From an uncultured Planctomycetaceae bacterium (GTDB lineage Bacteria > Planctomycetota > Planctomycetia > Planctomycetales > Planctomycetaceae), in the NCBI GenBank assembly GCA_903896675.1, contig CAITYU010000282.1, forward strand, positions 1 through 56,423: 56,423 bases of DNA. Direction: 5' to 3'. Position 1 is the first letter of the stretch. Each line of letters starts with the position of its first letter. Below, in pieces: positions 20,969 to 37,255 of this stretch. Both the position numbers and the translations under genes were made by a program. Below the pieces are notes generated by a model. That model had not been told where the DNA came from. It ran no database searches and worked only from the letters and a program-made list of their open reading frames with translations.

Positions 20969-22888
20969 TCAGGCTGCCGCAGGATTCGCCGGAGCAGCAG
21001 GCTCTGCCGGGGCAGCAGGCTCTGCCGGGGCGGCAGGAGCAGGAGCCGTCGGCTCCGGGGCAGCAGGTGGCTCTGCTGGAGTTGGCGATTCCGGTACAAC
21101 ACCGGGAGCAGGCGCAGGAGGTTCCGGTGCACCGGAAGTTTCCGCAGGAGCCACAGCAGCCTGCGGAGTTTCGGTGACCGGCGTCACGGGCTCCGCCGGA
21201 GCTTCCAGCACTCGCTCACGCAGCGCACCGCCCAGTACCAGCTTCCAGATTCCCGCCTGATCCTTCAGCCGTACATGTCGTGCTGTAATCTCAGTAATCT
21301 CCGCTGCAATCTCCGAAATACGCACAGTTTCACCGACTTTGAGCTTCAGCGTCACTCCCGTCCCGCGATTACGCAGCCACGCAAACCAGGTGCCATCCCG
21401 CGAAACCGTTCCGGTCAGCGTCGTCATGGCCGCATAGTCGTCCTGAACATCCAGAGCAATCTTCGCTGAAGCAGACTTCGCATCACGACCACCATCCGTC
21501 ACATTGACCGTAATGTCGTATTTACCCGGAGTAAACGAGCGGGCCGGCATCCATTTCAATAACCCCGTCCGCGCGTCAATCCCCAGGCCCTCAGGAGCAC
21601 CACCACCAAGACTGTACTTCAGGGACTCAGCCGGACCATCATCCGTTGCCGTCGCCTGCAGCGAAAACTCACGCCCCAACACCACCGTGGCAGCCGATTG
21701 CACTGTGATCTTCGGAGCCACATTCTGCTCCTGAATCGTAATCGTCAGCTTCGAACTGATCTTCTGATCCGGCTTGCCCGACTGCACCGCTGCCACGACC
21801 GCCGAGTATTTTCCGGGCTCGAGGGACTCGACCGGAGTCCACGTGAACTGGCCAGTAGAAGCATCAATGGACATCCCCTCCGCGGCATCCTCAAGAGCAA
21901 AGGACGCCGTACCCAGTTCAGGATCTGCATTGTCCAGCTTCGCCGTCAGACTGACCGGTTCACCCGGACGAATCGTCCTGTCTGAAACTCCAGCCAGCTT
22001 CGGACTCCACGTCTTCGGTGCCGCCGGCAGCACAAATGGCGATGACGACACCAATGCCTGATAATCCTCCAGCCGTTTCTCACGACGATCCCACAGCACA
22101 GGAAACAACTCCACAGTCGCCTCATCGGCATGCACCGCAGATTTTGTACCAGCATAACCACGCACAACCTTCCAGCCCGCGTCACTGACCTCCACCACCT
22201 GCAACAGTTCACGATCCAATCGCACCAGAAACGGTTCAAAACCCTCAGGCTGCACGGGAAACATTTCGTTCGGCAGCGCCTTCAGCAACTGCACCTTATC
22301 GTCAATCCCACCTGCCAAACGCGTACGCGGCAGCAACTCAGCACGATTCTCCGTGCCCGTGACACTCATCCCCTCAACGGTCAAAGTCACTGCCAGACGC
22401 GGGTTTCCCTGAGCCCCCGGGCTGTCCACCTTCATCCCGGTGATTCTGTGCAGAAGTGCCGACTGATCAAACAGATACAGAAATCGCGCCAGCCCCTGCA
22501 GATCCACTTCCGCCTTCTTGATCTCCACCGCGACCGTACTGTACTCCTTCTGAGCAGATCGCGCGCCGGGAACCACCTCGAAACCCGATCCCGAAAAACC
22601 ACACTGCCGTGCCAGATCGAAAATCCACTCACGATACAGTCGCTGAGCACTGTCCAGATCACCCGGCAGACTGATCGCTTTCCAGTCCTTCAGATTCCGC
22701 TGCGCCACATTCAGCTGAATCTCCTGATCCGCCAGCTTCTCCGCCTGCGATTCCGCAGTGGCAACCTTCCGTTCCAGGTCCCGAATCGGCCCCATGACCC
22801 AGTTGGTCACAATCGAGCGACCAAAATAGACTGCCACGACTGCACCCAGCCCGGCTGCCAGCAACTTTGTGCGTTTCTGATCGTCCAT
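20969..22888 (-). CDS. PilO/GspM-like protein fused to Ig-like and PilP/GspC-like domains
   Basis: The 639-residue protein is the last gene of the secretion operon. Order of parts: short cytoplasmic start and membrane helix (about 10-32), coiled coil (about 35-70), PilO/GspM-like ferredoxin-fold region (to about 190), linker with YQALVSSSPFVLP (about 277-289), two cadherin/He_PIG-like beta domains (about 293-387 and 390-482), a PilP/GspC homology-region-like domain (about 488-560: LTGTVSRDGTWFAWLRN, LKVGETVRI, VRLKDQAGIWKL), and a Pro/Ala-rich tail with PAEPAA repeats. PilP/GspC domains bind secretin N0 domains, so this one polypeptide could replace both GspM and GspC. Domain boundaries are my estimates. 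Confidence 0.7.
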   Translation of the reverse strand: MDDQKRTKLLAAGLGAVVAVYFGRSIVTNWVMGPIRDLERKVATAESQAEKLADQEIQLNVAQRNLKDWKAISLPGDLDSAQRLYREWIFDLARQCGFSGSGFEVVPGARSAQKEYSTVAVEIKKAEVDLQGLARFLYLFDQSALLHRITGMKVDSPGAQGNPRLAVTLTVEGMSVTGTENRAELLPRTRLAGGIDDKVQLLKALPNEMFPVQPEGFEPFLVRLDRELLQVVEVSDAGWKVVRGYAGTKSAVHADEATVELFPVLWDRREKRLEDYQALVSSSPFVLPAAPKTWSPKLAGVSDRTIRPGEPVSLTAKLDNADPELGTASFALEDAAEGMSIDASTGQFTWTPVESLEPGKYSAVVAAVQSGKPDQKISSKLTITIQEQNVAPKITVQSAATVVLGREFSLQATATDDGPAESLKYSLGGGAPEGLGIDARTGLLKWMPARSFTPGKYDITVNVTDGGRDAKSASAKIALDVQDDYAAMTTLTGTVSRDGTWFAWLRNRGTGVTLKLKVGETVRISEIAAEITEITARHVRLKDQAGIWKLVLGGALRERVLEAPAEPVTPVTETPQAAVAPAETSGAPEPPAPAPGVVPESPTPAEPPAAPEPTAPAPAAPAEPAAPAEPAAPANPAAA

Positions 22889-22954: not shown

Positions 22955-24427
22955 TCAGGATGCACTCTCCGCACCAATACCCGCTTCACGCCCCTCCGGC
23001 AGCACCAGCTCCATCTTCACCTTGATCTGATACTCCTGCGACACAGCAGCCGGACGGACATCCGTTTCATAGGGCTTCACCCGATATCCTGCCTCGGCCA
23101 GTCGGCGGCTCAGGTCATTGATTTCCGCCTCCGTCTTTGCCCACGCGTCAAATGTCATCAAACCCACACCACCCTGCTGCACCGTCGTAAACGAAAAATT
23201 GTCCACAAACATCCGATCCGTGCCGGGCATCAACTTCCGCAATCGATCCACTTCGTCCAGCCACTCCAGATCCCGATCCACCCAGCGACCAATCTTCTCA
23301 GCCCACTCCAGATCCTTGCCACCGGCCTCCACCAACTCCCGAATTTCAGTATTCTCAGCGTCCAGACGTCCCTTTTTACCAGTCAGCTCCGCAATCCTCC
23401 CCTGCCGGTAGGTCCACACACCCGCAAACACCACAACGGCCGCCAGTGCACCCCCCAGAACCTTCACCCGACGAAGATCACGCTTCGGCGGAGTCTTCCG
23501 GGGATTTGCAAAGTCAATCGCCTGCACACTACTGCCCTGACCGGACAGCAGCGCACCGGCAGCAGCCACCATCTCCACAGCCAGTCCTGCTCCAACAGCG
23601 TTCACAAGCACCGCAGGATCCACCCGCTCAATCACCGCACCGTCAAATCGAGCCGACAACTGATCCGTGACCGTCGCTGTGATTTCCGGAGCACCCATGA
23701 GCACAATGCGGTCGATCTTCTGATCACCCACAACATCCGCAGCCGACATCCTCGCCCGAGAAAGCTCGGCCCGCAGTGTCCTCTCAATGGCATCTTCAGC
23801 GGTCCACGAAGCCCCGCTGTGAGAAAACAGGACGGTCCTTCCCCGCAGAAATGTCAGCTCAAGAAAATCACGACGCATCACCGCCACGACGTCCACACCA
23901 CGCCCGTCCGCCCCATCACGCAACAGACCGGCCGATTCCAGCAACTGAGCCACGCAGTAGCCACTCACGCGAGCCTCAGCCAGATCCAGACCCGCGTCAC
24001 CCAGCGTGCGACGCACCAAAGTCAATTGATCGTTGGGCACAGTCACCAGCAGGACGTCCCGAGTCGCTGCGCCGGGTTGCAGCGGCAGCGGAGTAAAATC
24101 CATCGAGACCGTTTCCACCGGCACCGTCAGCTTCAATGCCGCCTGCAGCCGCAGCAAGTCCGGTACGTCAGCATCCGCGACCGGCGGCAGCTGCACTCGA
24201 TGCACAGTGACCTGCTGTCGAGGAAACACAACCGTCGCCGGCAGACGCCGCTTCTCACCACCACCCGGAAACAACTGCCTCAGATGCTGCACAATGTCCA
24301 GGGTATCCCCGGAGTTCTCACTGCGCGGCAATTCCTCCGCCAGACTCAGCTCCACTCGCTGACCGACGCCCCGGCCCCGCACGACCAGCAGACGCTCACG
24401 ATCCCACTCTATCACGATCTCGGCCAT
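22955..24427 (-). CDS. PilM-PilN fusion (GspL-like assembly ATPase platform protein)
   Basis: The 490-residue protein joins an actin-like PilM/GspL cytoplasmic domain (about 1-300; MAEIVIEWDRERLLVV, LQAALKLTVPVETVSMDF, VNAVGAGLAV) to a PilN-like part. The PilN-like part has one membrane helix (about 323-340, VLGGALAAVVVFAGVW), a coiled coil and a small periplasmic ferredoxin-like domain. This is the GspL architecture and would link the GspE ATPase to the periplasmic PilO-like protein encoded 66 bases downstream. The ATG at 24427 is chosen because the PilM domain starts at once. A 204-base AT-richer gap separates it from gspK. Confidence 0.75.
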   Translation of the reverse strand: MAEIVIEWDRERLLVVRGRGVGQRVELSLAEELPRSENSGDTLDIVQHLRQLFPGGGEKRRLPATVVFPRQQVTVHRVQLPPVADADVPDLLRLQAALKLTVPVETVSMDFTPLPLQPGAATRDVLLVTVPNDQLTLVRRTLGDAGLDLAEARVSGYCVAQLLESAGLLRDGADGRGVDVVAVMRRDFLELTFLRGRTVLFSHSGASWTAEDAIERTLRAELSRARMSAADVVGDQKIDRIVLMGAPEITATVTDQLSARFDGAVIERVDPAVLVNAVGAGLAVEMVAAAGALLSGQGSSVQAIDFANPRKTPPKRDLRRVKVLGGALAAVVVFAGVWTYRQGRIAELTGKKGRLDAENTEIRELVEAGGKDLEWAEKIGRWVDRDLEWLDEVDRLRKLMPGTDRMFVDNFSFTTVQQGGVGLMTFDAWAKTEAEINDLSRRLAEAGYRVKPYETDVRPAAVSQEYQIKVKMELVLPEGREAGIGAESAS

Positions 24428-24631
24428 GGTCGTCACTCTGCCAAAATGCACTCAGAACTTAAACACCACTCAATTCAACACCAACTACCAGCCACCAGTA
24501 CCGCACATCAGAAAAATCCGACTGCTCCATGAAAGCACAGATTCATTCTGCATCGATTACACTGAATCTGGCGATCACGCCGCCCCTCGTCACCACACAC
24601 TCATTTCGACCTGTCAGCCCCACACCTGACT

Positions 24632-26266
24632 TCACTGATCCACTTTTCCATCCAGCAGGTCCGGCGAAAATCCTCGCCCCAGCCCCGTTAAATCCCGCTG
24701 AAACGTAATCCGCGGCGGTTTTTTTGTCCCGTCCACCATCGCTTCCAGTCGAGTCGTCGGGCCACCCTGATCAAAATGCCCGAGGACCTGAAACGAATAC
24801 ACATCTCCCGTTGTTGTCAGCCACGGACCCAGACGCTTGAACGTCGGCACATCCACCAGACCCTCCGTCAGCAGCCACACCGGTGACCGCCGCATCGACA
24901 TCACCTGAGCCGCCTGAGCAGAGTCCTCGCCCGCAGGAGGCCGCGCACCAAGAATCGCATCCGCTATCGCCTCCGTCATATCCGGAATCGCCAGCAACAC
25001 CTCCCGCGGTGCAATGTTCACATTGATTCGACCATCAATGAACTCGTCATTCAGCCACGTCAGCTTCTCCTCAAGCACCAGCATCTGCTCCATTAACCCG
25101 GCCGGATCCGTCGATGTCCACGGGCTGTTCAGAGTCTGATCGGCTCCGTTCACGGTCACAGCCACCTGGGCATCAATCAGGTCGTAAATCGAACGAAAGG
25201 ATGCCTGCGGAGGATTCGACAGATCCATGCCACCGCGAGTCACCTTGCCCAGCTCGCCATTCGCCAGATTCTTCGCAATCCAGTCCACCAGCTGCTGCTG
25301 CTCAATCGTCAGCTTGCCCTGCGCCTGCGAGTCCGCCAGTTGATCACCAGTCAGTCGATATCCGGTCAAAAATGTGGCTGTCTCCGTATCAAACGATTCC
25401 TCAAGAAAGTCAAACATCTCAGCCACAATCCCGTTGTTCACATTGATCTTCTTTTCCCCGGTCGTCTGAACATTGCGTTCCCGACTGGAAACCGTCAGAT
25501 AATCCCGCAGTCCAAAATCCAGCGTCCCGTCCTGGTCGTCAGTCGGAGGACTTTCCGCCCCGTCGTCCTCGTTCGGATCCATCCGCCCATTGCGGTTGGC
25601 ATCCTCACCGTAAAACAGCTGCGGCGTCACACCCTGCACCTGCAGCAGTTCGTCAATCGACTGCATCGGAGCATTCCTGGCAGAGTACGGCACAGCCAGC
25701 GCCTCATACGTCGATGACTCAGCCCCACCAGCCCGCGCTTCCTCATCCGAATCGATCCAGTCCAGAATCGCATTGCAGATGTCCTCAGACATATTCGGAA
25801 TGAAACTCACAGCCGTATACGGATCCGTCGTATCGTCCACATCGTTTTCCAGCTCAAGCAGCCGATTGACGTTGAACTTCGCCGTCTCCGTGGTCAGCCC
25901 CGCTCGCGGCAGCGAATCCAACGACCCCACCATGCCCGGACTCAGCACGGAAAATCGCACCTGCCCCCGAGCCTCGCCACCCCCACCCATCGGCTGACGA
26001 CTGAACATTGACGAATCGTCATACAGATCCAGTGTCGCATCCGTCTGCCGCAGTGCAATCTGCGCGGCCACATACTCCACTCCGGACTCCGCCGCCATCC
26101 GCGCTTCCACATCACGGCCAAACATCGATGCCGCACGATTCTCCGTATCCATTTCGCCCAGATAACTGTACGCCGCCAGTGACAGCAGGATCACCACCAC
26201 AGTCACCACCAGCAGCACGAAACCACGACGCTGACCGGACACACGGTTTGCAGATGCACGTCTCAC
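24632..26266 (-). CDS. gspK: Type II secretion minor pseudopilin GspK
   Basis: The 544-residue protein has a basic leader and the prepilin-like helix RRGFVLLVVTVVVILLSLAAYSY, without Glu at position 5, as is typical for GspK. Large periplasmic part: the segments KFNVNRLLELEN, CNAILDWIDSDEEARAGGAE and MQSIDELLQVQGVTPQLFYG match the GspK helix-hairpin-helix pattern. EDANRNGRMDPNEDD is an EF-hand-like calcium loop insert. The region around residues 380-545 extends beyond the usual GspK length of about 330. GspK caps the pseudopilus tip with GspI and GspJ. Its start overlaps the gspJ stop by four bases. Confidence 0.85.
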   Translation of the reverse strand: MRRASANRVSGQRRGFVLLVVTVVVILLSLAAYSYLGEMDTENRAASMFGRDVEARMAAESGVEYVAAQIALRQTDATLDLYDDSSMFSRQPMGGGGEARGQVRFSVLSPGMVGSLDSLPRAGLTTETAKFNVNRLLELENDVDDTTDPYTAVSFIPNMSEDICNAILDWIDSDEEARAGGAESSTYEALAVPYSARNAPMQSIDELLQVQGVTPQLFYGEDANRNGRMDPNEDDGAESPPTDDQDGTLDFGLRDYLTVSSRERNVQTTGEKKINVNNGIVAEMFDFLEESFDTETATFLTGYRLTGDQLADSQAQGKLTIEQQQLVDWIAKNLANGELGKVTRGGMDLSNPPQASFRSIYDLIDAQVAVTVNGADQTLNSPWTSTDPAGLMEQMLVLEEKLTWLNDEFIDGRINVNIAPREVLLAIPDMTEAIADAILGARPPAGEDSAQAAQVMSMRRSPVWLLTEGLVDVPTFKRLGPWLTTTGDVYSFQVLGHFDQGGPTTRLEAMVDGTKKPPRITFQRDLTGLGRGFSPDLLDGKVDQ

Positions 26267-27321
26267 AGTACCTGCTCCGCAATAATGGGTTCCGCCACCG
26301 GCAAAGGCACAACAACACGATGAGTCGTGGCAGGCAGAGCATAGGGGTCCGGCTCGTCCAGAAATGAAGCATTCGACGCTTCCGCCTCATCACGTACCGT
26401 CAGCACAATCTCAATCGCCTTCGGCAATGAATTCAACGCCGTACTGTCCCACTCCTCCTGCCACGCAATCCCGTCAAAATAACGAAACTGCACCCCCGAA
26501 ACTTCCCGCGCCAGCAACTTCGCCGCCGCCAACTGCGGACTGTCCTCGGAATTCTCCACCGCCGTGCTGAGCCCGTACAGATCGCCTGCCATACGAGCCA
26601 GCCCGACAGGCCCCTCGTCCCGACCTGGTGCCTCCCGGTCTGCAATCTCCGAACCCAGACCCGATCCCTGCTTGTCCGCCATCAGATATCGAATAATCAC
26701 CAGGTCCCCGGTCCGCTGGTCCAGCGTCGATAATTCCTGCGATGAGACATACGCGAGATTCGGATCCGGACGACTGACAAACAACTGCAGATCCGTCGCT
26801 GTCCCAACCAGCCCGCTGGTATACGTCGTCGAAACAGTCTCCGGATCAATCATCGATTCGCCATAAGCATTGCCGTCAAGCTCCCCGGATGTCGACATAC
26901 CGCCGGACGACGCACTGCTGCCACCAGACGTCGCTGTACCCGCACCAGACCCCGTCGTGCCGGAACTCAATCCCGATGTCCCACTGCCCGATAACCCGCT
27001 GGTACCACCTCCACTCAGCCCCGAAGTGCCGGACCCGGAAGATCCACTGCCACCTGTCGAACCCTCTTCGTCTTCAGGCAGGACCTCCTGCTTTGCAAAT
27101 ACCACCGACTGAATATCCCTCGTCATCTGCCGCAGAACAGCACGAGCCACCTGCTGGCGAGCAATCTCTTCGTGGCTGTCCAGTTGCAACTCAAAATACG
27201 TGCTCATCGCTGAATACAGTGCCGCCATCAGCAGCGACGTCAGCCCAACCGCAATCAGCAGCTCAAACAGAGTAAAGCCGGTACGCCGGACAGCCGGGAC
27301 AGAGCAGGGCAGAGACATCAC
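26263..27321 (-). CDS. gspJ: Type II secretion minor pseudopilin GspJ with Gly/Ser/Thr-rich insert
   Basis: The 352-residue protein has the type IV prepilin motif TGFTLFELLIAVG with Glu5, followed by a hydrophobic helix. RQQVARAVLRQMTRDIQSVV matches GspJ. An insert of about 65 residues (about 88-150) is made almost only of Gly, Ser and Thr, with repeats of the type GTSGLSG. The GspJ fold then resumes (TDLQLFVSR, LVIIRYLM, VSGVQFRYFDGIAWQEEWDS). The protein should sit in the pseudopilus tip complex with GspI and GspK. ATGA overlaps join it to gspI upstream and gspK downstream. Such an insert is not part of standard GspJ. Confidence 0.83.
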   Translation of the reverse strand: MMSLPCSVPAVRRTGFTLFELLIAVGLTSLLMAALYSAMSTYFELQLDSHEEIARQQVARAVLRQMTRDIQSVVFAKQEVLPEDEEGSTGGSGSSGSGTSGLSGGGTSGLSGSGTSGLSSGTTGSGAGTATSGGSSASSGGMSTSGELDGNAYGESMIDPETVSTTYTSGLVGTATDLQLFVSRPDPNLAYVSSQELSTLDQRTGDLVIIRYLMADKQGSGLGSEIADREAPGRDEGPVGLARMAGDLYGLSTAVENSEDSPQLAAAKLLAREVSGVQFRYFDGIAWQEEWDSTALNSLPKAIEIVLTVRDEAEASNASFLDEPDPYALPATTHRVVVPLPVAEPIIAEQVL

Positions 27322-27779
27322 TGGCTACCCCCTTCTATCGCCGCATCCAGAAACAACTGCGGATCACGCATATAACGCACCAGACTGAAGGCCGCATTCG
27401 GTTCCCCGGTCATCTCCGGACGATGTTCCACAACCACAGTCACCTGCAACAACCCACTGGCACCGCCCGCTGTCACATCTGCTGACCAGTACCACGTCCC
27501 CGTTTCATCATCCAGAAACGGATTATCATCCGATGACACCGCTTCAGACACACCCGCTACAATCTCACCCATCACGGATTCACATCGCAACACAGCCTCT
27601 GACTGCAGTCGGGCTGACACCTCGGCCCGCTGACCGACATTCAGAGCGAACATGATGGCGGTCATCGCCCCCATGAAGACCGCCACCGAGATCAATACCT
27701 CCAGCAGCGACAACCCACGCCGCCCCAACTGAGCGCTAATACCGCGAAACTCACTGCTGCCGCGGACAAGCCTCATCAC
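27318..27779 (-). CDS. gspI: Type II secretion minor pseudopilin GspI
   Basis: The 153-residue product carries the prepilin cleavage and methylation site RRGLSLLEVLISVAVF (cut after Gly, Glu5 present). ARLQSEAVLRCESVMGEIVAG follows, and its helix resembles GspI. The rest is a compact beta domain (GTWYWSADVTAG, LLQVTVVVEHRP). It would initiate the pseudopilus tip with GspJ and GspK. Its ATG overlaps the gspH stop, and its own stop overlaps the gspJ ATG, each by four bases. The leader before the cleavage site is long (about 21 residues). Confidence 0.83.
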   Translation of the reverse strand: MMRLVRGSSEFRGISAQLGRRGLSLLEVLISVAVFMGAMTAIMFALNVGQRAEVSARLQSEAVLRCESVMGEIVAGVSEAVSSDDNPFLDDETGTWYWSADVTAGGASGLLQVTVVVEHRPEMTGEPNAAFSLVRYMRDPQLFLDAAIEGGSQ

Positions 27780-28387
27780 TCGTCCTCCAGCTCAAAGACC
27801 TGCGAGACCCGAATCGCGCCTGTCAGACCACGAACCGTGATTTCCGCCGTACGCCCCACCTCGTCCACCACCCGAATCACTCGATCCTCTGCCGTCCCGT
27901 CAAATCGAAACAGAATCGGCTTCGACCACGTCTTCCCCGCCAGCTCTCCCGCATTCGGCAGATCATTGAACGCCAATGGCTCCAGTGATTCCCCACCAGC
28001 GTCCGCATCGTTCGCCGGACGCAGATACAGGTTCTCATCCAGCTCGCCAGCCTCAAGCACCACACGCATGTCGTTCTCATCGCCCGAATAGCTGTTCGCA
28101 AGCGTCGGGTCCGGCTCAGCCGGGATAGCCACAAACGCCGGTCCGTTCAGCTCAAAGCGAAAATGATAGTCCACACCACCATCGATCGCGTAACGCCGAG
28201 CATTCCCCAGAACCTCACGAACCGACTCCGCCGCGTCCTGCACACGACCGGACTGCAGTCGGTCCATCAGCGGCGGCACAGCAATCGCCGACACAGCCAC
28301 CAGTACCGCCAGCGCAAGCAGCAACTCCAGCAGCGAAAAACCCGCTGCTGAAACGCCTGTCTGCCGTCGCTGATGACACCGAATCAT
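27776..28387 (-). CDS. gspH: Type II secretion minor pseudopilin GspH-like
   Basis: The 203-residue protein has the prepilin signal AAGFSLLELLLALAVLVAVS with Glu5. The GspH/FimT-like segment RVQDAAESVREVLGNARRYAIDGGVDYHFRFE then leads into a beta-rich C-terminus. The ATG at 28387 gives a short basic leader; the ORF runs 17 codons further upstream. GspH joins the minor pseudopilins of the secretion apparatus. It is the first gene of the overlapping gspH-I-J-K block, 149 bases after gspG. A type IV pilus FimT role cannot be excluded by sequence alone. Confidence 0.8.
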   Translation of the reverse strand: MIRCHQRRQTGVSAAGFSLLELLLALAVLVAVSAIAVPPLMDRLQSGRVQDAAESVREVLGNARRYAIDGGVDYHFRFELNGPAFVAIPAEPDPTLANSYSGDENDMRVVLEAGELDENLYLRPANDADAGGESLEPLAFNDLPNAGELAGKTWSKPILFRFDGTAEDRVIRVVDEVGRTAEITVRGLTGAIRVSQVFELEDE

Positions 28388-28536
28388 GACTCGCTCTGCC
28401 ACACAGAATTCAACCTTCAAACCACACCGAATCAGCACTCACGGGTGCTGCAGACTGCCTGGATCGGCCATTTCAGCCGACACACCAGACAACCCCAGCA
28501 CCCGCAGCATTGACAACCGCCACGCAACGCACCACG

Positions 28537-29037
28537 TCATTCAGTGGCTGCCAGCGTCTTCCAACTGGGGATATCGTCGCCTTCTCCGCCCTCATCCTGA
28601 CCATTCGAACCCATGGACCAGATGGCCGGCTTCAGAGCATTCTGCTTCTTGCTGTGTCCGTCTCCGTTCCACTCATACTGCAAAGGACGCCCCCACGCAT
28701 CCAGCGGCGGCTCTTCGATGTACGGACGCAGCTTGCGTCCCTTGTACGCCTGAGGATTCATCATCTGCTGCCACGCCTCCTGACCACTGGCCTTCAGATA
28801 CGAACCATCATGGTCAGCCGCCCACGTACCAACAGGATTCTTCTCGATGCTCTTGATCGTCGCCAGAGTCACATCCTCGTTGGCCTTCTGCTGACTGCCA
28901 ATCAGGTTGGGTACCACCATGGCAGCGATCACCACGATGATCGCCAGCACGATCAGCAGTTCCAGCAGAGTAAAACCGGCACGACGAGACCGTCGGTTCA
29001 GACCACAATCCCGCTTTTCACAATTCAGTCTTCTCAT
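28537..29037 (-). CDS. gspG: Type II secretion major pseudopilin GspG
   Basis: The 166-residue protein has the strong type III prepilin signal RRAGFTLLELLIVLAIIVVIAAMVVPNLIG, cut after Gly, with Glu5. The GspG fold follows: ATIKSIEKN, then PLDAWGRPLQYEWNGDG and IWSMGSNGQDEGGEGDD, the calcium-binding loop region of major pseudopilins. It would polymerise into the pseudopilus that works as a piston. The ATG at 29037 is preferred over that at 29061. The C-terminal extension after the calcium loop is short. It follows gspF by 99 bases in transcription order. Confidence 0.92.
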   Translation of the reverse strand: MRRLNCEKRDCGLNRRSRRAGFTLLELLIVLAIIVVIAAMVVPNLIGSQQKANEDVTLATIKSIEKNPVGTWAADHDGSYLKASGQEAWQQMMNPQAYKGRKLRPYIEEPPLDAWGRPLQYEWNGDGHSKKQNALKPAIWSMGSNGQDEGGEGDDIPSWKTLAATE

Positions 29038-29136
29038 GATTGCACACTTCCACCGTTTCAACAGACACAGAAACCAGACTTCAGCAACACAGAACTATTC
29101 GCAACAGACAGCATTTTCCTGGACGACTTTTTCACT

Positions 29137-30345
29137 TCACCTGTTGGATGACATGTTCAGTACCGGCAGCAGCAGAGCCGCGATCACAAAGGTTACCACA
29201 GTTGCCATCACCAGCAGCAGCATCGGTTCCAGCAGACGCACCACCATGTCAATCCGACGGCTGGTCCGCTTCTCCATGTTATCCGCCACGTTGATCAGCA
29301 CATTCTCCAGATTATTCGCTTCCTCGCCAACAGCAATCATCTCGATCAAATCACGGGAAAACTGGCCACTGGCCCGCAAAGGCACCGCCAGCGACTGTCC
29401 ACTGCTGACGTTGTCCGCAGCATTTCCAATCGCCTCAGCCAGAATCACATTGCCACTGGCATCCTTGGCAATTCTCAGCGACTGCAGAATCGGAACCCCG
29501 TTCTTCAACAGCGTCCCCAGCATACGACAGAATCGCGCCACCGCCAGACTCTGCAGAATCCCCCCCAGACCGGGCAGCCGCAGCTTCAGTCGGTCCAGAT
29601 TGCGCGAACCCTCAGGAGTCCGTATGTAGTAAACGATGCCGAACACCACACCACCCAGCCCCGCCAGCAACAACAAACCCCGCTGCTGGATCAGATCACT
29701 GATCGAAAGCAGCGTCGTCGTCGCCCATGGCAATGTCCCCTGATCCTGCATCCGATCAAACATCGAAGCAAATTCCGGCACGAACCAGATCATCATCACC
29801 GTGACAATCGCCAGCCCCACCGTCATCAAAAACATCGGATACACCATCGCACCAGTCACTCGACCCCGCAACTCCTCCTGATGCTCATTAAACACCGCAA
29901 TCCGGCTCAACACCTCTTCCAGAAATCCCCCCTCCTCACCAGCCTTCACCATGCTGATCGACAGGAAGTTGAAAGTCTTCGGATGCCGCCGCATCGCATC
30001 GTTCAGCCGAGTCCCATCAGCGACCTGCTCGCGAATATCCTGAACCACCGACCGCAGCACAGGGTTCGACGTCTGATCCTCCAGCAGCTGCAGCGATCTC
30101 AGCAACGGCACACCGGATTTCAACAGGTCAGACAGCTGATTGTAAAAAACGGTCAGATACCGAGTCGGTACACGCCTTGAACCCGCAGACGCCTGCTGCT
30201 TCGACTGCTCAGTCAAAGATACACTCATCGGGAACAGACTGCGCGCCGCCAGAATCGACAGGGCGTCCTTTTCACTGGTCGCCGTCAGAACTCCGGATAC
30301 CTGCTTCCCGGAAAGCTCTCTTGCCTGATACCTGAAATCCGGCAT
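29137..30345 (-). CDS. gspF: Type II secretion inner-membrane platform protein GspF
   Basis: The 402-residue protein begins with the MPDFRYQAREL start typical of GspF/PilC. It has the duplicated GspF domain, seen twice as FYNQLSDLLKSGVPLLRSLQLL and FCRMLGTLLKNGVPILQSLRIA, with the MVKAGEEGGFLEEVL and MIAVGEEANNLENVL elements. Three membrane helices are visible (about 168-188, 220-238 and 375-395). It is the cytoplasmic-membrane platform on which GspE acts. Length is normal. It lies 34 bases after gspE. Confidence 0.93.
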   Translation of the reverse strand: MPDFRYQARELSGKQVSGVLTATSEKDALSILAARSLFPMSVSLTEQSKQQASAGSRRVPTRYLTVFYNQLSDLLKSGVPLLRSLQLLEDQTSNPVLRSVVQDIREQVADGTRLNDAMRRHPKTFNFLSISMVKAGEEGGFLEEVLSRIAVFNEHQEELRGRVTGAMVYPMFLMTVGLAIVTVMMIWFVPEFASMFDRMQDQGTLPWATTTLLSISDLIQQRGLLLLAGLGGVVFGIVYYIRTPEGSRNLDRLKLRLPGLGGILQSLAVARFCRMLGTLLKNGVPILQSLRIAKDASGNVILAEAIGNAADNVSSGQSLAVPLRASGQFSRDLIEMIAVGEEANNLENVLINVADNMEKRTSRRIDMVVRLLEPMLLLVMATVVTFVIAALLLPVLNMSSNR

Positions 30346-30379: not shown

Positions 30380-32065
30380 TCAGCCTACGATGTCACCACG
30401 AGTCAACCGGACGACCTCGTCAATGCTGGTCACGCCCGCCGCCACCTGCTCCCAGCCACTGCTCCGCAGCGTCGTCATGCCCGCCTTCAGTGCATAATCG
30501 CGGATCTCCGTGCTGCTTCGCTGCTCCACACACATCCGCTGCACCATCGGATCCGTCCGCAACAGCTCAAACACACCAATTCGACCCGCAAATCCCGTGT
30601 CACGACACTCACGACACCCCTTCGGCTCGTACACAACGTCACACAGATCGCGAGGAAAATCGGCCGGCAGATCAGCTTTCGAAATCGGCACCGGCACCCG
30701 GCAGTGCTGACACAGCCTGCGCACCAGTCGCTGAGCCAGAATCCCCTCCACCGTACTGGCCACCAGATACGGCTCAACACCCATGTCCACCAGTCGAGTA
30801 AACGCGCTGGGCGCGTCGTTGGTGTGCAGAGTACTGAAGACAAGGTGACCCGTCAGAGATGCCTGAATGGCCGCCTGAGCCGTCTCGCCGTCTCGAATTT
30901 CTCCGATCAGCACCACGTCCGGGTCATGACGCAGAATACTTCGCAAACCAGCCGCAAACGTCAGCCCAATCCTGCTGTGTACCTGAATCTGACTGATCCC
31001 GTCCATCTGATACTCAACGGGATCCTCAACCGTGATGATCTTCACCGTCGGATCCTTGATCTCATTCAAGGCACTGTACAGTGTCGTCGACTTACCGCTG
31101 CCAGTCGGACCCGTCACCAGAATGATCCCGTGAGGCAGATCAATCAGCTGACGAAAGATCTTCATCACCGTCGGCGGCATACCCACATTGCGCAGGTCAA
31201 ACGTCATCCGCGCCTTGTCCAGAAGACGCATCACCACGCCTTCCCCATGCAGCATCGGAATGATCGACACGCGAACGTCCACCTCACGCCCCGAAACTCG
31301 CAGCTTGATACGCCCGTCCTGCGGCAGCCGCTTCTCGGCAATGTTCAGATGCGACATGATCTTCAGTCGCGTCACAATCGCATTGTAGAACTGCGCAATT
31401 TCAGGAGGCGTCGGCTGGATCCGCAGCATCCCGTCAAGACGGAAACGCACACGCATGCCACTCTCCTGCGGCTCAATGTGCACGTCGCTGGTCTGCAGCT
31501 TCACCGCCTCCATCAGCAGCTCATTCACCAGCTTGATCACGGATGGCGCCTGAGCCCCTTCGGCCAGCTCGCCAAAGTCCTCGTTGATCTCCTCCAGAAG
31601 CTCAATGCCCTCGTCCGCCTTGCGACGCACCAGCTCATTGATCGTGTCACCACCTACACCCAGCAGCTCGTGGATCCGACTGCCCAGCTCGCCACTGCGA
31701 GTCAGAACAGGGGACAATCGAAAACCACTGACAGTACTGAGTTCGTCCAGACCCTCCAGATTCAAGGGATCCGAAGTGGCCACGACCACATGACCGTTCT
31801 GGCGATACAACGGCAGCAACGAATGGCGGTAAATGGACGACGTCGGAAATTTCGCCAGCAGGTCAGTGTCAACCTGCACGTTCTTCAGGTCCACATACGG
31901 AATTCCAAACTCGCTGGAAAGCGTCTGCAGCAGCCTGTCTTCCGTCACCACTCCCATCCGAATCAGCGCCTGATCAATGCGCGAACCGGCATGGGCCTCA
32001 CGAGCCGCAGTGATCTGCTCGCGAGTCGCCAGACCTTCACTGATAAGCAGCTGTCCAAGTTCCAT
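30380..32065 (-). CDS. gspE: Type II secretion/type IV pilus assembly ATPase GspE
   Basis: The 561-residue hexameric ATPase has an N-terminal MshEN-like domain ([18 protein letters not shown]) and a catalytic core. The core contains Walker [11 protein letters not shown] (about 319-328), the Asp box ITVEDPVEY (about 344-352), Walker [10 protein letters not shown] (about 384-392) and the His box STLHTNDA (about 411-418). The zinc-binding tetracysteine is present (C452/C455 and C484/C487), as in assembly, not retraction, ATPases. It powers pseudopilus growth in the cytoplasm. It follows the secretin-like gene by 42 bases. Confidence 0.95.
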
Positions 32066-32107: not shown

Positions 32108-32270
32108 TCAACGACCACCACCGCCACCACGGCCACCAAAACCACCGCCACCAAAACCCCCGCGGCCGCCAAAACCACCCCCGCCAAATGGACTGCCACC
32201 ACCACCAAATGGGCTGCCACCACCACCAAACGGGCTGAATCCACCACGTCCTCCACCGCCCGTGTCCCCA
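32108..32270 (-). repeat. In-frame Gly-rich tandem repeats at the 3' end of the secretin-like gene
   Basis: The last about 55 codons are mostly Gly, with three SPFGGGG units encoded by near-identical units of about 21 bases and then GFGGRGG units. The repeats stay in frame. They resemble the Gly-rich repeats of the divergent gene at 36017. Confidence 0.75.
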
Positions 32271-35200
32271 CCCCGCTGCCGCATCCGATCCATCATCATC
32301 TGCTGGAAAGGATCCTGCGACTGCTGACCGGGACTGCCCGGAGTATTCGAGCCCGAACCACCTGCGCCACCCTGTGAAGAGGAAGAGGATGATGAGGATG
32401 AGGATGGACGAGTCGAACTGGTGGTGACGCGAGGAAACAGACTGGTCAGAGAACGCTGCACCGTCGCCGCATCCGAATGCTGCAACTGCACTACACGCAC
32501 CGTACGGTTCGCCTGCTGAGCCGTCTGGTCCACCTCATCCACCAGTGACTTCACCTTCTGAAACAAAGCCTCACTGCTGGAAATAATCAACGTACTGTTC
32601 TGCCGGTCAACGGCCACTGTCATCTGCACGCCGGTGGGTTCGCTGCGAGCACCCCGACCACCGCTGTTGCCACCACCAAACATCGCCGCCAGCGGATTGT
32701 TCTGCTGTCCACGCCCCCCAGCCGGTTCCATATAAGGTTTGAAAGCGTCATTCACAATCGTGACCACCTCATCAACATCCGCATGCTGCACCGCCAGCCG
32801 ACGCGGTTGCAACTCACGCAATGATTCAGGCATCTCGTTCGAATCCAGCACCCGCAACAATGACTCCGCCTCATCCACGGCAGCCTGCGGACCCGTGATG
32901 TACAGACAGTTGGCACGAGGATCCGGGATGATTCGCAGCGTCTGCGGATTCGCTCCCAGACCCGATAGCCCCGTCATACTGGACACCGACTGAGTAATCG
33001 GGCTGAACATCGAACTCAGACTGAAGGACGAATCCGCCGCCGTGCTGGTCACACTGCTGCTGGGCATCAACTGCTCAAGCAGTCCCGCCGTCTCAGTCGC
33101 ATCAGATGCCTGCAGGTAAAAGACTGTCCAGCGAGTCCTGAAGGGAATGGACTCCTGCAGGAAATCCATCATCTCTTCCAGACGATCCAGCGCGTCTTCG
33201 TCCTTCGACAACAACAGCAGATCATCCCCGTCAACCACAATCTGAATGTCCGGAACCCCGGCAGTGGATTCGTCCTGTGCCACCTGTCGAGGCGGCAACT
33301 GCGGAGCCGCAGCGGCCTCCTGACGCACCGGATAATAAAATGTCTCCTTGCGAATCCCGCCAGCCCCGGGCCCGCGACCACGATACGTGGTCGTCGGCTG
33401 CCGCTCACCGGTTGTTCCCGGTGCAGGTGCTTCGCCGGCCGGAACCTCAGACGATGGTTCGTCAGACTGCAGAGACCCCGAAGGAGTCTTCAGGTCGCGA
33501 ATCGGCCCACTCTTTGCCGGTACCACAATGCGGATACTCGACTTCTCAGCAGACTGCCACTCCTTCTGCAGATACTCAAAGAACTCTGACGGATCACGGC
33601 CCCGCAGCGAATACCGACGAATCGGACCACCCTCGCCCTTGTTCCGCTGGCCCGTCCCCTCTTCACCCAGGTCTCGCAACACCTGCCGAATCTGCTCCAC
33701 CTGAGCAGCCGTGCCCTTGACGATGATCCGGTTGCCATACAGATCGGTTTCGACCGTAGGAGCCGCATTGCCCTCCGCAATGAACAGATTCCGCAGCGTC
33801 GCTGCAGCCGTCAATGGATCCATCTTCACCAGCGGAATCACCGCCACTGATCCGGATGCTCCCGTGCCTTCAGAAAACGACTTCACCCACTCGGCAACCT
33901 GGTCATGCTGCTTCGTTGTGCCGAATATGTGCACCGTGCCCGCCTGACCATCCTCATTCACCACCACTCCCGGCAACATCGCGTCAATACTCTGAGCAAC
34001 CTGGTCGGCACGCCCCGATACCTTATACACCTTCAGGTACGGACCACGTCGATCCGTTCCGTCCAGCGGGTTGCCCTTCGGGTCCTTGTCGACATCCAGA
34101 GTCCTGATGATCTCCTCAACCAGCTTCTGCTGGTCAGGAGCCGCTGTGACCAGCAGACTGTTGGTGCGCGTATCCGAAAACACCTGCAGGGTATTCGTAC
34201 GAGCCGGGGCCTGAGGCTGCGGAGAACCCCCTCGACGATCGCCACCCGCTCCGGAACTGACATTCGTTACACCCTGACGCATACCAAATTGCGCCAGCAG
34301 CATGAATTCAGCCTCCTCGACCGCTATGTGCTCAAGATAATATGACTTGAACACCAGCTCGTCTTCCATGCGACCCAAAGCCGAATCGACATAGCTCTTG
34401 ATCCGCCGCAGATTCGCACCCGTGTCAGCAATGATCAGTGTGCCCGTCTGAGTAAAAGCGGTCATCGTTCCCAGCGGACCAAGCAACTGCTCGACCTCCT
34501 GAGCCATCACGCCAACATCCAGCTTCTCCAGCGGAATCTCAATGCGAACAATCTCGTTCTCACCGATCGTTCGAGCACCACTCTCGACCTTCAGCAGGTC
34601 GTCCACGGAAATGTCACGGATCAGATTCGGAGGAATCGTCCTGTCCACATTCACACAGACAAGGAAGTTGTCCTTGACGACCAGCGTATAACCCTTCCGC
34701 TGCAAGTACCCGTTGATAATGTCCATCGCCTGCGAAATTGTGTACTCGGCCGAGTCAATGTGTGTGAATGTGCCCGTGGGCAGCTGAGTAATGTCAAGAG
34801 TGTATCCGCCCGCCGCAGCAAAATCCTGCAGCACCTGATCCCACGGCGCATATCGCATGTTGAACGACAGCTTTTCCGCACGCTCGCCCGGAACTGCCGC
34901 AGCACCAAAACTGGACACCACTACCGCCCCCGGCGGAGCCGCCCCCTGAGCCTGCGGATCGTAAGCAGCCGCTCCGCCAGCAGCAGGAACCATCGGAGCA
35001 CCCGGAGCAGCCACGGCACCCGGAACCGCAGCCACCGCCGCCGCCTGAGGCCCAGCCTGCTCCGTCCACTTCGTCTTCTGCTCCGCCGTCAACACGGACT
35101 GATACTTGTCATCCCACTCCTTCGTAAAGGTTGCCCGCTGCTCCTCCGTGGCATTGAAACCCAGCGCGGCCGAGGCCTCGCGACGCTGAGCCGACAAGGC

Positions 35201-35698
35201 TTCCAGCTGCTTCTTCTGCTCGTCCGTCAAACCCAGATCCGCAGCCACTCGAGCATCCGAAAGTGCACGAACACCAGCCTCACGGATATATATGGTTCGC
35301 AGCAGCTTGAGCTGTCGACTGTCCAGCAAAGCCAGTGCCTTGCCCGATACACCTTCCTTCGCAGCGGCCACTGCAGCCTGCATCTCCTCACGAATCTTCG
35401 TGCGAGCCGCCTCGTCCTTCTCCTCCTTCATACGCTGCAGAAAGGGATCGAAAATTTCACGACCCGGATTTCCAGATGCCGCTACCTCGGACAACTGCGT
35501 CTTCTGAGTTTCTGACAAACCCAGCTCCTGCTGGATCTCGTCACGACGAAGCAAATCCGCCTCGGAACCAGCACGAGTCTGCCCCTGAGCAACTGCCGGC
35601 ACACACAAGATCGACGCCAGCAGCAGACCAGTGCAAAACAGAGTCCGCCCGGCAACCACCTGCAATTTGATCACGGGAATCTTCCATCCAGGTCGCAT
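32108..35698 (-). CDS. Secretin-like protein with repeated N domains but no beta-barrel (GspD position)
   Basis: The 1196-residue exported protein leads the secretion operon. After a signal peptide (LLLASILCVPAVAQG) comes a helical region with two LTxxQ/Spy-like motifs (ELGLSETQKTQL and DLGLTDEQKKQL). An N0-like domain follows (about 275-350; LSFNMRYAPWDQVLQDFA), then a chain of KH/secretin-N-like domains (about 382-445, 449-537, 553-612, 616-677, 855-953, 964-1060) with repeated LL.....VxxDxRxNxLxI patterns. After a poly-Ser linker (about 1099-1108) it ends in a Gly-rich tail with SPFGGGG repeats. The secretin C-terminal domain, with its VPxLGDIPxLGxLF-type gate motif, is not seen. I start at the ATG at 35698 because it precedes the signal peptide. 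Confidence 0.75.
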   Translation of the reverse strand: MRPGWKIPVIKLQVVAGRTLFCTGLLLASILCVPAVAQGQTRAGSEADLLRRDEIQQELGLSETQKTQLSEVAASGNPGREIFDPFLQRMKEEKDEAARTKIREEMQAAVAAAKEGVSGKALALLDSRQLKLLRTIYIREAGVRALSDARVAADLGLTDEQKKQLEALSAQRREASAALGFNATEEQRATFTKEWDDKYQSVLTAEQKTKWTEQAGPQAAAVAAVPGAVAAPGAPMVPAAGGAAAYDPQAQGAAPPGAVVVSSFGAAAVPGERAEKLSFNMRYAPWDQVLQDFAAAGGYTLDITQLPTGTFTHIDSAEYTISQAMDIINGYLQRKGYTLVVKDNFLVCVNVDRTIPPNLIRDISVDDLLKVESGARTIGENEIVRIEIPLEKLDVGVMAQEVEQLLGPLGTMTAFTQTGTLIIADTGANLRRIKSYVDSALGRMEDELVFKSYYLEHIAVEEAEFMLLAQFGMRQGVTNVSSGAGGDRRGGSPQPQAPARTNTLQVFSDTRTNSLLVTAAPDQQKLVEEIIRTLDVDKDPKGNPLDGTDRRGPYLKVYKVSGRADQVAQSIDAMLPGVVVNEDGQAGTVHIFGTTKQHDQVAEWVKSFSEGTGASGSVAVIPLVKMDPLTAAATLRNLFIAEGNAAPTVETDLYGNRIIVKGTAAQVEQIRQVLRDLGEEGTGQRNKGEGGPIRRYSLRGRDPSEFFEYLQKEWQSAEKSSIRIVVPAKSGPIRDLKTPSGSLQSDEPSSEVPAGEAPAPGTTGERQPTTTYRGRGPGAGGIRKETFYYPVRQEAAAAPQLPPRQVAQDESTAGVPDIQIVVDGDDLLLLSKDEDALDRLEEMMDFLQESIPFRTRWTVFYLQASDATETAGLLEQLMPSSSVTSTAADSSFSLSSMFSPITQSVSSMTGLSGLGANPQTLRIIPDPRANCLYITGPQAAVDEAESLLRVLDSNEMPESLRELQPRRLAVQHADVDEVVTIVNDAFKPYMEPAGGRGQQNNPLAAMFGGGNSGGRGARSEPTGVQMTVAVDRQNSTLIISSSEALFQKVKSLVDEVDQTAQQANRTVRVVQLQHSDAATVQRSLTSLFPRVTTSSTRPSSSSSSSSSSQGGAGGSGSNTPGSPGQQSQDPFQQMMMDRMRQRGGDTGGGGRGGFSPFGGGGSPFGGGGSPFGGGGFGGRGGFGGGGFGGRGGGGGR

Positions 35699-36016
35699 AA
35701 TCAGATCCGATACAAATGTACACTCACGCAGACTTGGGTACATCCTGTTATTCTTCGCAATCGCCGACCAACAGCATGAATCGAACCAGGGAATACCCCG
35801 CGAGATCCAGCAGCTGGCCGTGAAAGTAAAGGTCCTGACGAGGATTCTGCCTGAATCCCCCAGCTTCCTTCGCTGTCAAACCCACAATTCTCCGGTGGGG
35901 GTCTGCGAAAATTGGAAAGATTCCCGAAACGGACAGGGACAATCAGGGTTTGAAGGCATAATAGATCGATTAGTCTGCAGTCCACCCGACTGAATCCCAA
36001 CTTCCAGAGCACTACC
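35699..36016. other. Shared upstream region of the secretion operon and the Gly-rich EF-hand gene
   Basis: This 318-base divergent intergenic region must hold promoters for both the ten-gene operon (minus) and the EF-hand gene (plus). CATAAT at 35957-35962 is a possible plus-strand -10 box, but no good -35 box goes with it. TGTCAA at 35873-35878 is TTGACA on the minus strand, again without a good -10 partner. Short inverted repeats such as CCCAC/GTGGG near 35880-35900 are weak. I call no definite site. Confidence 0.4.
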
Positions 36017-37255
36017 ATGAAACAAATGTTCACACCATTGATGCTGGCGGCTGCTCTGCTGGGCTCAGAATCACTGCTCGCTCAGGACGGCGGATTCGGT
36101 CGCGGCAGCCGCGGCGGAGACCGTGGTTCAGATCGCGGCGGAGACAGAGGCGGAGACAGAGGCGGAGACAGAGGCGGAGACAGAGGTGGGCGTGGTGGCG
36201 ATTCCGGAGGACGCAGCTTCGGCGGATTTGGCGGAGGTGGCATGCCGGGTAGCTTCGGAGGTGGACCTCCAGGTGGATTCGGCGGTGGTCCACCGGGGTC
36301 ATTTGGCGGTTTCGGAGGTGGGCCTCCCGGAGGATTCGGAGGATTTGGGGGTGGCCCGCCAGGCGGATTCGGAGGCTTCGGAGGGGGCCCTCCAGGCGGT
36401 GGCGACAGCGACCGCGGCAGCCGGTTCACCTCCATGATGGATTCCAACGGTAACGGCAAAATCGATCAGGAAGAACTCGACCGCATGCCATCATTCGTCC
36501 GCGACATGATGAAGGCTCGCGGCATCGAACTCAAACCCGGTATGTCACTCGATGACATGCGGAACTCATTCCGCTCTGGATTCGGCGGTGGCCCGCCCGG
36601 ATCACCTCAGAATCCCGGACAACCTCAGGAAAACAACAAGCCGAAGGCACTCACTCCCTATCGGATGAAACCCAAAAAGCCCATGACGCTCGAACTGCCC
36701 CCGGCCTATGCCGAAGTCGATACCGACTTCGATGGACAACTGGGCATGCACGAATGGATGATGACCCGCCGCGCTGATCTTGATCAGTTCGAATCGATGG
36801 ATATTGACTTCGACGGTTTTCTGACCCCTGAAGAACTCCAGGCCGCAGAAACCGCTGCAGCCGCTGGTCAGAATGTTGCGTCCACCGACGAACGCAAGCG
36901 ACTCACCATCGTCACAGGTACGCCGGCCCGAGCCAAAAACTCTCGCGGTGACGACAAACGCAGTGACCGTGGCGACGATCAACAGCGATCTGAAAACCGT
37001 TCGCCGTGGGGCGGAGGCGGCAGTCCATGGGGCGGTCAGCCTGGTGGGGAAGCCGCTATGGCCCAGTCTTACTTTTCACGGCTGGACCAGAATCAGGACG
37101 GTCGCATCGACACAACGGAATGGGAACAAAGCCGGCGCGTTCGCGGCATGTTTGAACAAGCCGGTATTCGCATTGAATCCATGGACCTCGGCACGTTCAC
37201 CAAAAACCTTGAACGAGCCACGGCCGCATCCGGACAGCAGCAGGGCGATCGCTGA
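36017..37255 (+). CDS. Secreted Gly-rich protein with four EF-hands
   Basis: The 412-residue product has a signal peptide (MKQMFTPLMLAAALLGSESLLAQ). An RGGD repeat run (about 34-57) and a GGPPGGFGGFG repeat run (about 70-128) follow. Four EF-hand loops are visible: DSNGNGKIDQEE (142-153), DTDFDGQLGMHE (235-246), DIDFDGFLTPEE (262-273) and DQNQDGRIDTTE (357-368). A SPWGGGGSPWGG stretch near 329-340 echoes the SPFGGGG tail of the secretin-like protein encoded divergently next door. It should be exported and calcium-binding. It could be a substrate or a surface partner of that secretion system, which is inference from position and shared motifs. Confidence 0.8.
   Translation: MKQMFTPLMLAAALLGSESLLAQDGGFGRGSRGGDRGSDRGGDRGGDRGGDRGGDRGGRGGDSGGRSFGGFGGGGMPGSFGGGPPGGFGGGPPGSFGGFGGGPPGGFGGFGGGPPGGFGGFGGGPPGGGDSDRGSRFTSMMDSNGNGKIDQEELDRMPSFVRDMMKARGIELKPGMSLDDMRNSFRSGFGGGPPGSPQNPGQPQENNKPKALTPYRMKPKKPMTLELPPAYAEVDTDFDGQLGMHEWMMTRRADLDQFESMDIDFDGFLTPEELQAAETAAAAGQNVASTDERKRLTIVTGTPARAKNSRGDDKRSDRGDDQQRSENRSPWGGGGSPWGGQPGGEAAMAQSYFSRLDQNQDGRIDTTEWEQSRRVRGMFEQAGIRIESMDLGTFTKNLERATAASGQQQGDR
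36137..36184 (+). repeat. Four perfect 12-bp direct repeats in the EF-hand gene
   Basis: GGCGGAGACAGA is repeated four times without change and encodes the RGGD run. The unit length is a multiple of three, so copy-number change would keep the reading frame. Longer imperfect Gly/Pro-coding repeats follow to about 36400. Confidence 0.9.

Follow-up and report, generated by a model that had tools for sequence, protein, structure and literature searches.

A barrel-less, GspD-like N-domain protein at the head of a planctomycete type II secretion operon, probably one half of a two-part secretin

Secretins are usually treated as single chains that bear both the periplasmic rings and the outer-membrane pore. 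We found that a type II secretion system (T2SS) operon of an uncultured Planctomycetaceae bacterium begins, at the position of gspD, with a gene for a GspD-like protein of 1196 amino acids that has N-domains only and no barrel, here called DN. We propose, with a probability of roughly 0.7, that a bipartite T2SS GspD has DN as its half on the inner-membrane side, which lengthens the periplasmic conduit, an assembly that we infer. The DNA analysed, referred to as the window, is a stretch of 56,423 nucleotides (assembly GCA_903896675.1, contig CAITYU010000282.1) from a genome of 5.9 Mb that is 95% complete, and its nearest relatives are Planctomycetaceae metagenome-assembled genomes. DN proved to be a family spread across the class.

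The DN gene was delimited by its open reading frame, profile searches and AlphaFold2 at 32108..35698 on the minus strand, or at 32108-35743 if an upstream ATG serves as the start. All its features lie on the same strand. A probable signal peptide (residues 1-38; 35585..35698) is suggested by a hydrophobic stretch followed by AVAQG and by a low-confidence helix in the model. It is followed by a Spy/CpxP (LTXXQ)-like helical domain (residues 46-215; 35054..35563), which matches PF07813 and is all-helical in AlphaFold2, and by an N0 domain (residues 276-350; 34649..34873), which was recognised from AlphaFold2 secondary structure, a Foldseek match to the N0-N1-N2 of XcpQ and a tree. An array of Secretin_N modules with disordered inserts (residues 383-1062; 32513..34552; Pfam and AlphaFold2) leads to a terminal half N-domain composed of beta1-alpha1 (residues 1064-1092; 32423..32509), which matches only positions 1-22 of PF03958 and is seen in AlphaFold2. 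The protein ends in a tail that is disordered according to sequence and AlphaFold2, Ser-rich at first and then Gly/Arg-rich (residues 1093-1196; 32111..32422). Pfam PF03958 (Secretin_N) matched DN in seven stretches with an E-value of 7e-48, and with its N0 and repeated Secretin_N modules DN belongs to the Secretin N-domain proteins. The NCBIfam profile for GspD, TIGR02517, gave 135 bits in the N-domain region only, against an equivalog cut-off of 351 bits, and PF00263, the secretin barrel, gave no match in DN even at an E-value of 10. DN is not a secretin by definition because the barrel is absent, but it probably works as part of one.

The AlphaFold2 model of DN, a monomer built on an alignment of 19 orthologues, shows an N0 fold at residues 276-350, then beta-alpha-beta-beta-alpha modules repeated up to about residue 1062, after which come the lone beta1-alpha1 half-module and the Ser/Gly disordered tail. 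Foldseek matched it to PulD, to the N0-N1-N2 crystal structures of XcpQ and to other GspD N-domains. Residues 855-1196 contain no barrel strands in this model, their longest strand being of about five residues. As a positive control, the GspD of the same genome, encoded on contig C124, was modelled identically and showed six strands of 17-23 residues at 960-1107; confidence in the two monomer models was modest (pLDDT 64 for DN and 63 for GspD). The possibility that the barrel is encoded in a different frame or past the stop codon was rejected, since gspE lies only 42 bases from the DN stop, and an assembly error was rejected as the cause of the missing barrel because the orthologues, some up to 95% and others down to 28% identical, share the architecture and end likewise. 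The original prediction, which had described an N0-like domain, about six further N modules, a poly-Ser and Gly-rich ending and no secretin C-terminal domain, agrees with these results; it had overlooked the Spy-like domain and the half-module. Neither of the two findings that it named as refuting it, a PF00263 match or a barrel within residues 855-1196, was obtained.

The same prediction placed the gene at the head of a T2SS operon, and this was borne out, the operon running on the minus strand from DN through gspE, F, G, H, I, J and K to L-like and M-like genes. Profile searches identified gspE, the T2SS ATPase with MshEN and T2SSE domains (30380..32065), gspF (29137..30345; TIGR02120), gspG for the major pseudopilin (28537..29061) and gspK with a T2SSK_1st domain (24632..26266). 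The genes gspH (27776..28438; weak TIGR01708 match), gspI (27318..27779; TIGR01707 under cut-off) and gspJ (26263..27321; TIGR01711 under cut-off) were assigned from these matches together with position. E, F and the pseudopilins G-K are found in one operon in the right order, several of them below curated cut-offs. A gspL-like gene with distant similarity to PilM (22955..24451; profile search) and a gspM-like gene with Ig-like domains (20969..22888; He_PIG match) hold positions that are conserved in relatives; the Ig-like domains and Pro/Ala-rich tail of the latter product are unusual for GspM. GspC gave no match above cut-off in seven genomes with the one profile used (PF11356), which a diverged GspC could escape. 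Two A24_N matches, on contigs C395 and C23, represent the prepilin peptidase in the window genome. On the plus strand, diverging from DN, lies a gene for a Gly-rich secreted EF-hand protein (36017..37255); many relatives conserve it next to DN, and its product has Gly-rich stretches similar to the DN tail.

The search of the rest of the genome for an unlinked barrel, which the original prediction had called for, found seven barrel secretins above the PF00263 cut-off, one of them matching in two pieces, and all 40 of the 40 relatives likewise carry barrel secretins. The C124 protein (1219 residues) is the GspD equivalog, with 363 bits on TIGR02517 against the cut-off of 351; it has an N0 of its own, six Secretin_N matches and PF00263 (Pfam). 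Since the barrel gene sits elsewhere in the genome, the window operon has none. DN and GspD are on different contigs here, and their pairing rests on relatives, in five of which a GspD orthologue closes the same T2SS cluster. It was seen directly in four. In G019, G020 and G037 the gene order DN-E-F-G-(H)-(I)-J-K-L-M-GspD lies on one contig, with about 7 kb of other genes between DN and gspE in G037; a lipoprotein gene follows GspD in G019 and G037, while the G020 contig ends inside GspD. G028 keeps the cluster end K-L-M-GspD-lipoprotein and has DN located elsewhere. In the fifth relative, G024, the assignment is made by position, from a PF00263 match downstream of gspL at the corresponding place, the gene itself being left undrawn by a simple gene caller. 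GspD has been relocated away from the operon in the genus of the window (L021, L084).

The lipoprotein-like gene behind GspD is a candidate pilotin gene. In the window genome it lies at L021:6278-7042 (VSAVGC), without a Pfam match, and similar genes stand behind GspD in L070, L073, L084, L085, L096, L099, L100 and L104. The C402 secretin was rejected as a partner of DN, because it is part of a separate gspE2/I2/J2/K2 cluster (L022:3071-10374, G000:C402) that has gspI, gspJ and gspK on one strand and gspE with an 843-residue barrel secretin on the other. The window genome also contains some components of another T2SS-like set, at L028 (G000:C471) and L026 (G000:C498) and with a GspK at G000:C302; it includes a second N-only protein of 952 residues, on an open-ended contig and ending at alpha1, and a 1394-residue secretin with a split PF00263 match.

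DN-like and barrel parts are joined or adjacent in relatives. Giant secretins of 2291, 2328, 3240 and 3269 residues end T2SS operons in other families of the class, and a giant of 2175 residues in G035 is unlinked to gspK. The DN profile covers the N-terminal half of the 2175-2328-residue giants, in order in two of them (382 and 351 bits) and piecewise in the third; their C-terminal half is covered by the GspD profile. In one example, DN profile positions 238-1088 align to residues 64-942 (382 bits) and GspD profile positions 358-1181 to residues 1188-2160. In a quick tree with long branches, the N0-N1 region of the giants clusters with DN proteins and is separate from GspD heads. The giants of G031 and G026 have between their halves a long Gly-rich linker similar to the DN tail (in G031, GGFGGTPFGGGFGG...GGGGRGGR), and the start of such a linker is visible in the G035 giant. 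The 3240-residue giant (L089:6835-16557, G032) has a Ser/Arg-rich linker instead; it was the one tested of the two largest, the other being the 3269-residue protein at L092:3563-13372 (G036), and it contains 24 Secretin_N matches and a barrel. G032 also encodes a DN of 941 residues immediately ahead of a 1079-residue secretin, and G085 has two tandem DN-like proteins of 1091 and 1340 residues ahead of a barrel secretin (L113:7905-15515). Two paralogous T2SS loci also have DN and a secretin encoded at a short distance. A second T2SS locus in the genus of the window likewise has an N-only protein (1333-1813 residues) near a secretin.

The Spy/CpxP-like domain of DN also exists as the product of its own small gene, within or next to the T2SS operons of four genomes: L094:15933-16730 (G029), L106:2901-3641 (G099), L112:10833-11765 (G070) and L071:10468-11157 (G019). 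The G029 protein has 265 residues and is encoded between gspE and gspF. Single-domain copies are present also in genomes that have no DN.

In some lineages, an N-domain appears to be split between the two chains. Nearly all DN proteins inspected end in a beta1-alpha1 half N-domain, some of them stopping exactly at the end of alpha1, and the headless secretins G032_1079 and G029_925 begin, not far past the signal peptide, with a beta2-beta3-alpha2 half as their first module. The G032 halves match PF03958 positions 2-23 in DN and 34-66 in the secretin; the G029 secretin half matches 30-64, and the G029 DN half alone gives no match. Joined, the G032 and G029 pairs match the whole profile (1-66) with 31 and 41 bits, respectively. 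Because joining necessarily adds scores, the complementarity of the halves is the informative point. DN and C124 GspD of the window genome, when joined, reach 43.5 bits on PF03958. In the AlphaFold2 model, however, C124 GspD has at the joint a self-contained N-domain with its own beta1-alpha1 ahead of the half, so completion in trans is not required for this pair and is not strongly supported.

Among the 33 genomes scored by both tests, the presence of a DN array and that of GspK agreed in 32, with both in 23 and neither in nine; the single discordant genome, G107, has an N-only array with GspK undetected. Fisher's test, which ignores phylogeny, gave p = 3e-7, a value that overstates independence because four of the nine genomes without both come from one family. 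DN and GspK are both missing from G027 but present in G032 and G036 of the same family, suggesting that they were lost together. Absence in a short-query class-wide search, which missed at least one true DN (G099), was never used alone. An apparent occurrence of DN without T2SS in lineage f2 was rejected, as only the Spy-like domain matches there. DN frames are long and intact in nearly all relatives, and the N0 and module columns are conserved at 28-38% identity.

On the proposed reading, DN would be exported and, in the periplasm, would stack its N0 and N-domain array into rings on the inner-membrane side of those of GspD. The separately encoded C124 GspD, with its own N-domains and barrel, would supply the outer-membrane pore. 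DN would extend the periplasmic conduit toward the GspE/F/L/M platform, with the pseudopilus driving substrate through, and its Gly-rich tail may act as a flexible tether. As GspC was not detected by profile, the N0 of DN is left as a candidate for contact with the platform, possibly in place of GspC. The original prediction offered as one alternative that the pore is encoded elsewhere and the protein is a periplasmic ring: the pore part holds, through C124 GspD, the orthologues that close the cluster and the DN-GspD fusions, while ring formation is suggested by the modelled fold. C124 GspD, however, already has an N0 and, where the two chains would meet, an N-domain that is complete in itself, so that strictly it does not need DN for its completion, and DN could lie alongside it instead of below it.

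Those same features of GspD would also suit a DN that is an accessory factor for assembly or coupling, acting like GspC, GspB or a scaffold, and that binds GspD N-domains or substrates transiently while staying outside the conduit wall. The missing GspC matches in seven genomes fit this, and the extra Spy/CpxP-like domain might confer chaperone-like activity. Nevertheless, the in-line fusion with the barrel, together with the half-domain joint and the Gly-rich linker, suggests that DN continues the secretin structurally, and we regard an accessory factor as rather unlikely. That DN is instead a new kind of outer-membrane exit, the other alternative offered at the outset, would accord with its place at the gspD position and with the operon regions examined in the genus, which hold no barrel gene. 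However, DN shows neither a barrel nor long amphipathic strands by Pfam and AlphaFold2, the genome has a GspD equivalog whose orthologues share the T2SS cluster in relatives, and barrel secretins occur in this genome and in every one of the 40 relatives; this exit is very improbable. A secretin in decay, now without barrel or function, would explain the absent barrel beside a paralogous GspD, but it is scarcely credible given the intact frames, the conserved N0 and module columns, the recurrent operon position and the co-occurrence with GspK. We retain the bipartite GspD as the preferred reading.

Barrel-less or giant secretins of planctomycetes were not described in the literature searched, which was largely outside subscription journals, and Denise et al. 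2019 makes no mention of planctomycetes in its main text. Annotation by operon position would mislabel the protein at the gspD position. Across the class, rings and pore occur as separate genes in some lineages and as fused giants in others, a natural experiment in the stacking and joining of rings. According to the available parts of one account (PMC5394234), planctomycetes have an enlarged periplasm, 'crateriform' press-stud complexes link the outer and inner membranes of Planctopirus, and fibres from large crateriform structures have been reported in Gemmata; those parts give no account of the composition of the Planctopirus complexes. It is a speculative extension, and doubtful as a whole, that many planctomycetes have a two-polypeptide T2SS channel, joined in some lineages via an N-domain split between the chains, which would stack some 13 rings or more, could reach across the enlarged periplasm or pin it locally, and may be a component of the crateriform complexes. 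The crateriform part would be weakened if the DN-less family f2 is the Gemmata lineage. The DN system is a concrete candidate for protein transport across, or bracing of, an exceptionally wide periplasm.

DN resembles canonical GspD proteins (PulD, XcpQ, EpsD) in its N0, its Secretin_N fold and its T2SS operon context, and differs from them in lacking the barrel and in having a Spy-like head and a Gly-rich tail. Multiplied N-domains are known from Thermus thermophilus PilQ, in which they form six stacked rings and the added N-rings cross a wide periplasm (PMC5745081); PilQ is one polypeptide, whereas the planctomycete systems have two, or a single giant in which Secretin_N matches up to 24 times. 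Secretion parts at distant loci recall the T2SS of Legionella, whose parts are scattered over distant loci; in the available text of that study only gene position is unusual, and a barrel-less second D protein is not described (PMC4793230). As a precedent and the closest known parallel for a split secretin, by analogy, we see the mitochondrial T2SS known from jakobids, heteroloboseans and other groups: there GspD is split, GspDN1-3 are separate proteins of one N-domain or half an N-domain, a two-hybrid signal suggests contact between GspD and GspDN1, and GspC was not found (PMC8134430). Both systems place the barrel protein and Secretin_N parts on separate polypeptides, have half N-domains and have no detected GspC. 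In mitochondria, however, the barrel protein has no N-domains and N0 is missing (PMC8134430), whereas DN is larger, with N0, at least seven modules and an added Spy-like domain, and the GspD of the window genome keeps its own array; DN and mitochondrial GspDN are likely to be of independent origin.
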